59,130 nt of DNA from an uncultured Bacteroidales bacterium (GTDB lineage Bacteria; Bacteroidota; Bacteroidia; Bacteroidales; CHK158-818): contig CASGEW010000005.1 in the NCBI GenBank assembly GCA_949300615.1, positions 1 through 59,130 of the forward strand, written 5' to 3'. How positions within the stretch are numbered: the first letter of the stretch is position 1; the number at the start of each line of letters is the position of its first letter. This document shows, in pieces, positions 6,227 through 10,344 of the stretch. Under the pieces are notes generated by a model. That model saw nothing but the letters and a program-made list of their open reading frames with translations. It ran no database searches and was not told the origin of the DNA. The translations under genes were made by a program, and so were the position numbers.

Positions 6227-8644
6227 CTAATCGAAAATACCGTCTATACCCACTTCGACAGCAGGAGATTCTACCTCGCTCTCTTCTGAACCCACCTCTT
6301 CGTCTGTGCCATAATCCATGACCTCGTCCTCGCCTTCGTATTTTCCTTCGGCGGAAGTGGCAACAAACTGGTTCGACATATTGAAATCTTCGGTTTCAGA
6401 ATATCCCAATTCCGGGGTTTCATACACTTTCTTGATAAACATGGCAAAAATAGGCAAGGCCATCTCGGCACCCTGTCCCTGGGTGATACGGTCGAAATGG
6501 ATCGAAGGATCTTCGCCACCGACCCACGTACCGGCTACCAGACTGGGCGTAAAGGCCATAAACCATCCGTCGGCATTGTTGTTGGTTGTCCCCGTTTTGC
6601 CCCCCATCGGTGCCTTGATACCATACCGGAAACGGATACGGGCTCCCGTACCGCCATCTATAACATCCCGCAACATGGGCAGCATCTTGTTGTAAGCATC
6701 CTCCCCGAATACCTCGGTCATGGTAGGCGTGAAGGTAGAAATCACATTGCCTAAATTATCCTCGATACGAGTTACATACAACGGATCTACCCGTACCCCG
6801 CCGTTCGAGAAGGTGGAGTATGCCGTTACCATCTCCTCTACCGATACCTCGGCCGGGCCCAGACAGAGCGAGATAACCGGGTCGATTTTGTTTTTAAGCC
6901 CGAACGAGTGCAACATCCGAACAAAGGCATAGGGAGACAATTTCGACATGATGTTGGCCGAAATCCAGTTGTTGGAATTGGCCAATCCCCAACGCAGGGT
7001 AACCATCTCGCCTACCCGCTTGTTGCTGGCGTTACGAGGCGTCCATATCTTTCCGTTCTCGTCGGCCAGCCGCGGCTGTACGTTGGGCGACAAGTCATCG
7101 GGAGAGGCTCCCTCCTGCATCGCCATCGTATATAAGAACGGTTTAATGGTAGAGCCGATCTGCCGACGTCCTTCCGACACCATATCATACTGGAAATTCT
7201 TGAAGTCCACCCCGCCGACATAGGCCTTTACATGGCCTGTTTTGGCCTCCATGGCCATAAACCCGGCTCTCAGGAAATACTTCTGGTAACGTATCGAATC
7301 CAACGGCGACATCAACGTATCAATAGGCCCGTTCCAAGAGAAGACCCGCATCTCGATGGGTGTATTAAACGCTTTTTCAATCTCTTCGGCCGTATGTCCG
7401 GCCTTTTTCATCATGATATAACGTTCGCTCTGCCGCATGGAACGCCGCATGATATTATTGATCTCCTCTTTTTTGATCCGGCTGGCAAAAGGTGCGGTAC
7501 TGCGCCCCTTCTTTTCGGCAAAGAATTTGGGTTGCAAGTAATGGCCGATGTGCTCGGTTACGGCATCTTCGGCATATTGCTGCATACGCGAGTCGATGGT
7601 GGTGTAGATTTTCAAGCCATCGGTATAAATATTGTATTTCGTCCCGTCGGCTTTTTTGTTTTTTTCGCACCAGCCATACAACGGATTGGTTTCCCACGCC
7701 AGCGAGTCGTCCGAGAACTTTTGATTCTGCCACGAAGCATAATTCTTACGTACGGGTTTCTTAGCCACCATCATCATCCGCAAATGTTCGCGGAAATAAG
7801 GAGCCAACCCCTCTTTATGGTCCACCCGGCTGTAATGCAGCTTCAAGGGGAGTTGAGAAAGCGAGTCGGCCTCTGCCCGGGTGATGTATCCGGCTTTCCG
7901 CATCTGTTCGAGCACGACATTCCGGCGTCCGCGGGTCCGTTCGTTTTTACGGATGGGATTGAAATAAGAGGAGTTCTTGCACATCCCTACCAACGTAGCG
8001 GCCTCTTCGATAGAGAGTTCCGAAGGAGTCTTGCCGAAATAGATCGAGGCAGCCGACTGTATCCCGACGGCGTTGTTCAAGAAATCGTACTTGTTCAGGT
8101 ACATATTGATAATCTCCTCTTTCGTATAGAACCGCTCCAACTGTACGGCAATGACCCACTCGATTGGTTTCTGGAAAAGGCGCTCCATGATATTTTCAGC
8201 ACTGGGAGAATAGAGTTGCTTGGCCAACTGCTGCGTAATGGTACTACCCCCTCCGGCATTGGACTGCAACAAAATCACCCGCTTTATGATAGCCCGGAAC
8301 AAAGCCTTCACGTCGATACCCGAATGGCTGGTAAAGCGAATATCTTCGGTAGCGATCAACGCCTTCACCAGATAGGGAGAGAGTTCGTTGTAACTGACAT
8401 AAACCCGGTTCTCCTTCTCTTTGAAGAAACGTCCTATCACCTTCATATCCGACGAAAATATTTCGGAAGCATATTTATTTTTCGGATTTTCAAGCTCTTC
8501 GATCGGGGGCATATAGCCGATTTTCCCCTTGGCAATCAGCATAAAGACCGTGGCAATCGACAATACACCGGCAACAAACAACACCCACATCGAAATGACG
8601 ATGTAGCGAACCAGACTTCCCTTATTTTTTTTCGTTGTATTCAT
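6227..8644 (-). CDS. mrcA: Class A penicillin-binding protein 1A (transglycosylase/transpeptidase)
   Basis: Bifunctional peptidoglycan synthase: polymerises lipid II and cross-links stem peptides in the periplasm. I chose the ATG at 8644 (805 aa) over a TTG at 8659. Residues 11-38 form one inward-anchored membrane helix. The GT51 transglycosylase domain follows, with ATEDIRFTSHSGID carrying the catalytic Glu and GGSTITQQLAKQLY. The transpeptidase domain has the nucleophile motif GSTIKPF (Ser about residue 497), the SNN motif in LANSNNWIS and KTGTTNNNADGW. The C-terminus ends in a strongly acidic tail of about 50 residues rich in Glu, Asp and Ser that is not part of the catalytic fold. The gene is divergent from pyrB and has its own promoter. 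Confidence 0.95.
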   Translation of the reverse strand: MNTTKKNKGSLVRYIVISMWVLFVAGVLSIATVFMLIAKGKIGYMPPIEELENPKNKYASEIFSSDMKVIGRFFKEKENRVYVSYNELSPYLVKALIATEDIRFTSHSGIDVKALFRAIIKRVILLQSNAGGGSTITQQLAKQLYSPSAENIMERLFQKPIEWVIAVQLERFYTKEEIINMYLNKYDFLNNAVGIQSAASIYFGKTPSELSIEEAATLVGMCKNSSYFNPIRKNERTRGRRNVVLEQMRKAGYITRAEADSLSQLPLKLHYSRVDHKEGLAPYFREHLRMMMVAKKPVRKNYASWQNQKFSDDSLAWETNPLYGWCEKNKKADGTKYNIYTDGLKIYTTIDSRMQQYAEDAVTEHIGHYLQPKFFAEKKGRSTAPFASRIKKEEINNIMRRSMRQSERYIMMKKAGHTAEEIEKAFNTPIEMRVFSWNGPIDTLMSPLDSIRYQKYFLRAGFMAMEAKTGHVKAYVGGVDFKNFQYDMVSEGRRQIGSTIKPFLYTMAMQEGASPDDLSPNVQPRLADENGKIWTPRNASNKRVGEMVTLRWGLANSNNWISANIMSKLSPYAFVRMLHSFGLKNKIDPVISLCLGPAEVSVEEMVTAYSTFSNGGVRVDPLYVTRIEDNLGNVISTFTPTMTEVFGEDAYNKMLPMLRDVIDGGTGARIRFRYGIKAPMGGKTGTTNNNADGWFMAFTPSLVAGTWVGGEDPSIHFDRITQGQGAEMALPIFAMFIKKVYETPELGYSETEDFNMSNQFVATSAEGKYEGEDEVMDYGTDEEVGSEESEVESPAVEVGIDGIFD

Positions 8645-8675
8645 TTCCCAATTTTGCAAAACGGTTTATCCAGCG

Positions 8676-8745: not shown

Positions 8746-8774
8746 TTGGCAAAACACTTTTTTTTGTAAATTTG
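8746..8774 (+). promoter_or_regulatory. Promoter of the pyrBI operon
   Basis: TTG at 8746-8748, 18 bases, TAAATTTG at 8767-8774: a good Bacteroidota -33/-7 pair. The expected start is about 8779-8782, giving a leader of about 165 nt before pyrB. Confidence 0.65.
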
Positions 8775-8781
8775 TCTGCGT

Positions 8782-8895
8782 ATGAGGCAAAAGATATTAA
8801 AATATAACAACCTGTATTTTACATATATAAAAGAGTATCAACCCCGGCCGATACCTCGTATGCCACATTGCAACCAATCCCTGCCCGGCAAATGA
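8782..8895 (+). CDS. Putative pyrBI leader peptide ORF (37 codons)
   Basis: An ATG at 8782 opens a 37-codon frame that ends with TGA at 8893-8895, inside the loop of the leader hairpin at 8872-8907. It begins MRQKILKYNNLYF and ends NQSLPGK. The ATG lies almost at the predicted transcription start, so translation would be nearly leaderless; an in-frame internal ATG at 8860 would give an 11-codon version. Ribosomes finishing this ORF would cover the hairpin, which is how pyrL of enterobacterial pyrBI controls attenuation. Nothing but position supports translation, so this is a candidate. Confidence 0.4.
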   Translation: MRQKILKYNNLYFTYIKEYQPRPIPRMPHCNQSLPGK

Positions 8896-8915
8896 GCACG
8901 ATTGGTTATTTTTTT
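8872..8915 (+). terminator. Candidate transcription attenuator in the pyrBI leader
   Basis: AACCAATC (8872-8879) pairs with GATTGGTT (8900-8907), with a further TGC/GCA pairing inside, and the hairpin is followed by seven T residues (8909-8915). No gene lies upstream on this strand, so an intrinsic terminator here only makes sense as a control point between the promoter at 8746-8774 and pyrB at 8947. Confidence 0.6.
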
Positions 8916-8946
8916 ACAGAAAAAGCTCATATAAAAACATACTTGA

Positions 8947-9861
8947 ATGAGAAAAGAAAGTTTAGTATCCATTACAGATTACTCGAAAGAACAAATTCTG
9001 GATCTGCTGGAAAAGACGAAAAAATTTGAAGCAAACCCCAACCGCCGCGTGCTCGAAGGGAAAGTGATCGCCACGCTCTTTTTCGAGCCCTCCACCCGTA
9101 CCCGGTTGAGTTTTGAAACCGCCGTAAACCGATTGGGAGGACGCGTCATCGGATTCTCGGACGCCGCCACTACCAGTTCGTCCAAAGGAGAAACCCTCAA
9201 AGATACCATTATGATGGTGAGCAATTATGCCGACCTGATCATCATGCGGCATTACCTGGAAGGAGCGGCCCGTTACGCATCGGAAATCTCCTCGATACCC
9301 ATTGTCAACGCCGGCGACGGCGCCAACCAGCACCCCTCGCAGACGATGCTCGACCTCTACTCCATCTACAAAACACAGGGGACGCTCCAAAACCTGAACA
9401 TCACCATGGTAGGCGACCTGAAATACGGCCGCACCGTACACTCGCTGCTGATGGCCATGTCGCACTTCAACCCCACATTCCACTTCGTGGCCCCCGACGA
9501 ACTGAAAATGCCCGAAGAGTACAAAGAGTTTTGCCGACAAAAGGACATCCCCTACCAGGAACACTCCGACTTTACCGAAGAGGTGATCAACCAGGCCGAC
9601 ATCCTCTATATGACCCGCGTACAGCGCGAACGGTTTACCGATTTGATGGAATACGAAAAGGTCAAAAACGTGTACACCCTGCACAATCAGATGTTGGACG
9701 GCAGCAAGCCCAACCTGAGGGTATTGCATCCCCTGCCCCGCGTAAACGAAATTTCGTACGACGTGGACGACAACCCCAAGGCATACTATTTCCAACAGGC
9801 CCAAAACGGACTCTATGCCCGCCAGGCCATTATCTGCAACGTTTTAGGCATTGAAATTTAA
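8947..9861 (+). CDS. pyrB: Aspartate carbamoyltransferase, catalytic chain
   Basis: Condenses carbamoyl phosphate with aspartate to N-carbamoyl-aspartate, the committed step of pyrimidine synthesis. At 304 residues it has the usual length of PyrB chains that pair with PyrI. All active-site segments are present: [12 protein letters not shown] (carbamoyl-phosphate loop), [10 protein letters not shown] (the mobile loop Ser-Lys), [12 protein letters not shown] (the catalytic His), [15 protein letters not shown] and HPLPRVNEI. It is first in a run with pyrI (21-base gap), a flavin reductase and an outer-membrane protein. The leader carries a hairpin with a T-tract, so expression may be attenuated in response to pyrimidine supply. 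Confidence 0.98.
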
Positions 9862-9882
9862 CCCGCAAAGAACAGACAGATT

Positions 9883-10344
9883 ATGAATACCACCAAAAAA
9901 GAGCTCGAAGTAGCCGCCCTCGAAAACGGCACCGTCATCGACCACATACCCTCCGAACAACTGTTCAAAGTAGTATCGCTGCTGAAACTCGACAAGATGA
10001 CCGGCAGCATCACCATAGGCAATAACCTCAAAAGCAAAAAGATCGGCAAGAAGGGCATCATCAAGCTGGCCGACACTTTCTTTCAGGAAGGCGAAATCAA
10101 CCGCATCGCCCTACTGGCACCCAACGCCAAGATAAACGAGATACACGACTACCAGGTGACGGTCAAGAAACAGGTTACGCTGCCCGATGTATTGGTGGGA
10201 GTCGTCAAATGCGACAACCCCAAGTGTATCACCAACAACGAACCGATGGATACCCTCTTTGAAGTGATCGACAAAGAAAAAGTAGAGCTCAAATGCCACT
10301 ATTGCGAACGCATCATTGAAAAGGAGAGAATCGAAATCCGGTAA
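9883..10344 (+). CDS. pyrI: Aspartate carbamoyltransferase, regulatory chain
   Basis: Regulatory subunit of the PyrB6-PyrI6 type ATCase; binds nucleoside triphosphates in the N-terminal allosteric domain and links catalytic trimers through a C-terminal zinc domain. The 153-residue length is typical. The four zinc cysteines are all present at about C110, C115, C138 and C141 (CDNPKC and CHYC). The N-terminal part has [16 protein letters not shown], the usual nucleotide-binding start. It lies 21 bases after pyrB and is clearly co-transcribed. With PyrI present, allosteric feedback on the enzyme would add to any transcriptional attenuation at the leader. Confidence 0.98.

Follow-up and report, generated by a model that had tools for sequence, protein, structure and literature searches.

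A putative pyrL-like attenuator with a near-leaderless leader ORF upstream of pyrBI in Bacteroidales

The control of pyrimidine genes by a race between ribosome and RNA polymerase that senses UTP has been known until now from enterobacteria. In Escherichia coli pyrL the terminator is preceded by a hairpin (about ATG+32 to +49) and by UUUUUCUU (about +60). The pyr attenuators of Firmicutes are of another kind and need the PyrR protein together with an antiterminator/anti-antiterminator RNA. In vivo, termination is suppressed where a ribosome is near a stop codon, at the pyrBI attenuator among others (PMC4824070; PMC5021804). In E. coli this holds for a ribosome at a stop codon close to the terminator, and at the pyrBI attenuator the suppression depends steeply on distance (PMC4824070, citing Roland et al. 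1988; PMC5021804).

Leader peptides translated from leaderless RNA are known outside the Bacteroidota, for example in trpL of Sinorhizobium meliloti (PMC7298713). Within the phylum, two studies report clues to leader-peptide attenuation of amino-acid operons in Flavobacterium psychrophilum (PMC9723704) and short ORFs in long 5' UTRs of Bacteroides thetaiotaomicron, in which 5' UTRs of less than 10 nt account for only about 3.7% (PMC7366714).

The pyrBI leader of the window

The window, that is, the whole stretch of 59,130 nucleotides analysed in this study, belongs to a genome within the genus of Candidatus Gallibacteroides, and its pyrB is 99% identical to that of DVNA01000146 (residues 26-304). 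On the plus strand it carries pyrB, encoding the catalytic subunit of aspartate carbamoyltransferase (8947..9861, ATG at 8947; TIGR00670, 374 bits, over cut-off), and pyrI, encoding the regulatory subunit (9883..10344; TIGR00240, 159.9 bits, over cut-off). A gene for a penicillin-binding protein with Transgly and Transpeptidase domains is located on the minus strand (6227-8659). As this gene and pyrBI (8947-10344) are divergent, with the leader sitting between both, there is no upstream gene that needs a terminator at 8872-8915, as the first-pass annotation of the window had argued. No further TAnnTTTG box was found between hairpin and pyrB on reading the window sequence, and by this search no second promoter separates the putative attenuator from pyrB-pyrI, which follow it directly.

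All the leader features are on the plus strand. TTG at 8746..8748 is a possible -33 element, and a weak one given that TTG was found in the -33 zone of 26 of 42 leaders. The -7 box TAAATTTG (8767..8774) conforms to the TAnnTTTG consensus of the Bacteroidota primary sigma factor, as given in PMC7366714 and PMC9723704. Since the latter maps this box at -12 to -5 in Flavobacterium, transcription in the window probably starts at about 8779, which would leave a 5' UTR of about 3 nt (8779..8781) before the leader ATG (8782-8784), located 7 nt after the box.

The near-leaderless leader ORF that begins there (8782..8895; MRQKILKYNNLYFTYIKEYQPRPIPRMPHCNQSLPGK), recognized from the sequence, the ORF list and relatives, has 37 codons. 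Its TGA stop (8893-8895) is held between the two 8-bp arms of the terminator hairpin AACCAATC...GATTGGTT (8872..8907), the putative attenuator, which is recognizable from sequence, folding and relatives and is followed by the T-tract ATTTTTTT (8908..8915). A simple terminator scan allowing loops of only 3-8 nt missed this hairpin; the first-pass annotation had described it, and all of its coordinates for promoter, ORF, hairpin with T-tract and pyrB proved correct. The isolated hairpin has a folding energy of -12.1 kcal/mol (z -2.1, matched by 7 of 200 shuffles), and the whole leader one of -27.5 (z -2.4 against shuffles). Taken alone, the leader is mildly unusual, about 10% of its shuffles staying open too. 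The single sequence being barely beyond chance, it is the comparison with relatives that makes the leader significant.

Leader geometry across Bacteroidales

Whole-genome searches together with a scan of GTDB contigs yielded 277 Bacteroidales pyrB loci with distinct upstream sequence. A perfect TAnnTTTG box located 75-121 nt before a terminator hairpin with a T-tract near pyrB was found in 74 of them, and the removal of near-duplicates left 48 promoter-terminator pairs. Compared with dinucleotide shuffles of these 48 leaders, 43 keep the ORF that begins at the first ATG open as far as the hairpin (expected 10.9, P about 1e-24), 36 have its stop no further upstream than 12 nt before the hairpin and no further downstream than the hairpin end (expected 8.4) and in 37 the first ATG follows the box by 4-11 nt (expected 9.2), with the qualification that P values of 1e-19 to 1e-24 assume independence beyond the removal of near-duplicates and are, given shared descent, too small. 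The box precedes the hairpin by 90-120 nt in 68 of 70 leaders, and the median distance from ATG to terminator is 90.5 nt. Little sequence is shared by the leaders between families, and the geometry is kept across about ten GTDB families in which the sequence, the peptide and locally even the frame differ. Among relatives the promoter, the stop of the ORF and the hairpin hence hold their relative positions, in the comparison that the first-pass annotation had put forward. Furthermore, in 1.13 Mb of Bacteroidales DNA around pyrB loci (both strands summed) the architecture was found at 12 places (the window and 11 other loci), all of them before pyrB. Both the conserved geometry and, within the scanned 1.13 Mb, its specificity for pyrB are evident from these sequence comparisons.

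Codon positions 1, 2 and 3 were found to be equally variable within Barnesiella, f106 (the labels f3 to f109 used for families are those of the genome set, with names given where a GTDB contig of identical sequence supplied one), Muribaculaceae and other groups, and Barnesiella leaders with frame-shifting indels remain open to the hairpin or beyond. These two observations indicate that the passage of a ribosome matters and the peptide does not, and the alignments argue firmly for selection for an open frame, not for a peptide. A conserved leader peptide as the product was rejected on account of the equal variability of codon positions. The leader peptide of the window has no Pfam match.

Terminator stems of a CCAA..TTGG type (CCAATC/GATTGG, CCAACA/TGTTGG) are common to several families (L001, L003, L010, L044, L048, L258 and others), which suggests a common descent of the element.

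The distribution of the architecture is patchy, the promoter-terminator pair not being detected in 187 of the 277 loci. It was found in both loci of the window's own family, in all nine of Barnesiella (f109), and in 4/4 and 3/3 loci of f69 and f79, respectively. For Coprobacter (f61) the script recognized three of five loci, and reading showed the remaining two to be laid out alike but with a weaker T-tract; for f22 the script recognized two of five, with the rest recognized on reading and bearing an additional upstream hairpin. The counts were 17/31 in f106, 8/32 in f42 and 2/5 in f20, and in Muribaculaceae (f26) 19 of 74 loci have the architecture, most being without it. In Bacteroides, Parabacteroides and several other families a short 5' UTR with no hairpin was found before pyrB.

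Several variants were also observed upstream of pyrB. Shorter ones in f3 and f42 have about 48-67 nt from box to hairpin, and their ORFs, of 6-11 codons, stop just short of the hairpin; in the short variants of L012, L134, L135, L284, L288, L290 and L026 this distance is 47-67 nt and the ORF, likewise of 6-11 codons, ends 5-14 nt before the hairpin. Three f106 loci (L261, L266, L270) keep the CCAACA-type terminator with no ATG leader found, and these might use a TTG start or possess an ORF-free attenuator. In L124, L128 and L129 (f22) an extra hairpin with a T-tract is located inside the leader before the pyrB-proximal terminator, perhaps representing two attenuators in series. L133, L137 and L138 (f29) are without a leader ORF, and in L137 the pyrB mRNA is instead predicted to begin with a hairpin, AATGAG...CTCATT.

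Attenuation mechanism, signal and alternative readings

The reading preferred here, to which a probability of roughly three in four is assigned, is that the window leader is a ribosome-coupled transcription attenuator of pyrBI which works like E. coli pyrL, with UTP as the most plausible signal. RNA polymerase would start at about 8779 and the leader AUG would emerge almost at once, so that a ribosome could load on RNA with hardly any 5' UTR. Should polymerase lose speed within the leader, for which a shortage of UTP is the most plausible cause, the ribosome would catch up and, at or near the stop within the hairpin, would cover the 5' arm; the terminator could then not fold and pyrBI would be transcribed. 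With ample UTP, polymerase would run ahead, the hairpin would fold in naked RNA and transcription would end at about 8915. We infer transcription start, translation and termination, as well as the UTP signal, the last of these on the basis of which genes are controlled, of the family-wide U enrichment and of analogy. It counts against this reading that close ribosome-polymerase coupling is, to our knowledge, undescribed in Bacteroidota, that the distribution is patchy and that the U enrichment next to the hairpin is absent from the window leader.

In the leaders taken together, U makes up 35% of the segment from -30 to -11 relative to the hairpin, the place at which E. coli pyrL has UUUUUCUU; the fraction is 27% immediately upstream of that segment (P 1e-3) and 25% in pyrB (P 4e-7). 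The window leader is without this enrichment, having 4 U in the 20 nucleotides directly before the hairpin. The first-pass annotation, which had described the region before the hairpin as AT/U-rich, was right in part on this point: an AT-rich stretch is located further upstream, at about 8800-8835. A weak mid-leader hairpin, GTATCAACCCCGGCCGATAC (8835..8854), is a candidate pause hairpin; it is not significant in the window, and mid-leader hairpins are enriched over 42 leaders (mean z -0.94).

A U enrichment that is modest across leaders, and that the window lacks, would also suit a ribosome-coupled attenuator of identical architecture sensing translation speed or an amino acid, in which slow translation leaves the hairpin free and pyrBI is turned off when protein synthesis is poor. 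Compared with PyrB, the leader peptides contain more Cys (4.5-fold), His, Gln and Arg. However, no single-codon run occurs at a fixed place, the peptides are not conserved and the antiterminator of classical amino-acid attenuators is lacking, so that this signal appears unlikely. Over 42 leaders no tendency of the upstream RNA to pair with the terminator 5' arm was found (mean z +0.13), and therefore neither a trp-like nor a riboswitch-like antiterminator is visible.

The near-leaderless start, which the first-pass annotation had regarded as an unusual twist, turned out to be real and widely kept, with a spacing of 5-10 nt from box to ATG in 58 of 70 leaders; if the box lies at -12 to -5 as in Flavobacterium, the predicted 5' UTR is about 1-6 nt across leaders. 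Spacing as nearly constant as this may also point to initiation itself as the sensor, an NTP-dependent choice of the start site, at or just before the AUG, deciding whether ribosomes load on leaderless RNA. In E. coli, start-site switching is known to act on other pyrimidine genes. However, the nucleotides that link box and ATG show no conservation between families (70 leaders), and some leaders have the ATG 13-24 nt from the box, which leaves a sensor of this type with a low probability.

A factor- or ligand-dependent RNA switch, whether PyrR-like or a riboswitch, for which the ORF would be incidental, could likewise account for a terminator within a pyr leader and for a whole leader that folds better than its shuffles. 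It is considered very improbable, since no PyrR over the cut-off was found in the window genome (94.6% complete; best 19.1 bits against a cut-off of 138), no Rfam match, including PyrR-binding RNA, was obtained for the window leader or eight relatives, no antiterminator was found and the openness of the ORF is highly significant. With antiterminator, PyrR and Rfam family all missing from these searches, a ribosome that itself covers the hairpin is the mechanism left. A small-protein or sRNA gene with its own terminator and unrelated to pyrB, of which an ORF plus terminator also has the look, can hardly be entertained given that the architecture occurs only before pyrB in the scanned DNA, that codon-position bias is absent and that the window has no other TAnnTTTG box between hairpin and pyrB.

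For the attenuator working like pyrL, an additional element of the leaders may be relevant. Of the 43 open leaders, 27 have an A[CA]ATA (mostly ACATAT or AAATAT) that starts 15-20 nt downstream of the ATG, against 2.0 expected; the motif was noticed and counted in one dataset, and an independent set should confirm it. In 23 of the 27 leaders it starts at 17 or 18 nt after the ATG; the window instance is AAATATA (8800..8806), and among the other bearers of A[CA]ATA(T) are L005, L020, L037, L044, L181, L254 and L292. It is read in two frames (12 and 15 leaders), as Thr/Lys-Tyr or His-Ile. A motif locked to the promoter was rejected, the offsets from the box being spread over 22-35 nt compared with the 17-18 nt from the ATG. 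Also rejected were a general feature of ORFs, the motif being found in 3.8% of 586 control ORFs, and a feature typical of box-proximal starts, for which one of 46 other box-proximal ORFs of at least 60 aa was positive. As it occurs in two reading frames and moves with the ATG and not with the box, A[CA]ATA is, as far as sequence can tell, a signal at the nucleotide level that goes with the start codon.

With odds of about 1 in 64, the ACAT found in E. coli pyrL at 17 nt from its ATG may be chance. A leader of the mobile tetracycline-resistance gene tet(Q) (L338; G126 contig 1, about 2896183-2896218, minus strand) has the box TAATTTTG, an ATG 8 nt later, the ORF M-R-Q-stop and ACATAT 18 nt after the ATG; this likeness may be chance or may reflect a wider role of the motif.

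Going by general footprint sizes, at the position of the motif the AUG is just out of the polymerase exit channel and the element is at the leading edge of the initiating ribosome. It is an attractive reading that polymerase pauses at A[CA]AUAU as the AUG leaves the exit channel and that a ribosome loads directly behind it. The leaderless AUG and the A[CA]AUAU 17-18 nt downstream might then form a joint signal, evolved in Bacteroidales, which synchronizes ribosome and polymerase, a proposal that we put forward tentatively and hold to be less probable than its absence. If true, ribosome and polymerase would begin their race to the terminator at a defined distance, as would the sensing of UTP that depends on it, and the element would be one not described before.

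Comparison with known attenuators

The leader in Bacteroidales probably works like pyrL, and homology to pyrL is not supported by sequence: PF08052 (PyrBI_leader) gave no match to the window leader at E 5, whereas E. coli pyrL scores 117 bits. In both, a leader ORF upstream of pyrBI runs into an intrinsic terminator shortly before pyrB. The distance from ATG to terminator is 88 nt in E. coli pyrL, close to the Bacteroidales median of 90.5 nt, and a mid-leader hairpin followed by a U-rich tract before the terminator is found in E. coli pyrL and in many Bacteroidales leaders. The two differ at the start, the E. coli ATG being located 25 nt behind the -10 hexamer TATAAT and provided with a GGAGG site, whereas in Bacteroidales it is mostly 7-9 nt behind TTTG. 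They also differ at the end, the stop being usually inside the hairpin in Bacteroidales and beyond it in E. coli pyrL. The A[CA]ATA motif, the Bacteroidota promoter and, in the window, the weak U tract are further features unlike those of E. coli pyrL.

The PyrR-regulated attenuators of Firmicutes also act on pyrimidine genes, but PyrR and the antiterminator needed there were both not found here. Attenuators of the trp/his type possess a codon run and a mutually exclusive antiterminator, neither of which was found in the Bacteroidales leaders. The leader transcript of S. meliloti trpL starts with the ATG of its own ORF, as is predicted here within a few nucleotides, but stalling is at Trp codons with alternative RNA structures, in another pathway and another phylum (PMC7298713). 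The cases in F. psychrophilum and B. thetaiotaomicron resemble the present one in belonging to Bacteroidota and in having short ORFs before operons; they concern amino-acid operons or unknown genes, and pyrBI or near-leaderless starts are not described in the accessible sections of these papers (PMC9723704, PMC7366714). The first-pass annotation knew of no described pyrL-like attenuator before pyrBI in Bacteroidota, and none was found in the literature searched. Attenuation of the pyrL type is a known class, and as far as that literature shows it is new for Bacteroidota, as is its near-leaderless and motif-bearing form.

The leaders provide strong comparative evidence that coupling of ribosome and polymerase in Bacteroidota is close enough for gene control. 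Bacteroidota make little use of Shine-Dalgarno sequences, and these leaders could serve as ready-made reporters of coupling. They also bring to light the AUG-locked nucleotide motif, and they suggest that near-leaderless translation probably has a physiological function in major gut bacteria. On the reading preferred here, pyrL-type attenuation of pyrBI would extend beyond the enterobacteria, having apparently converged on the same geometry of 88-91 nt.
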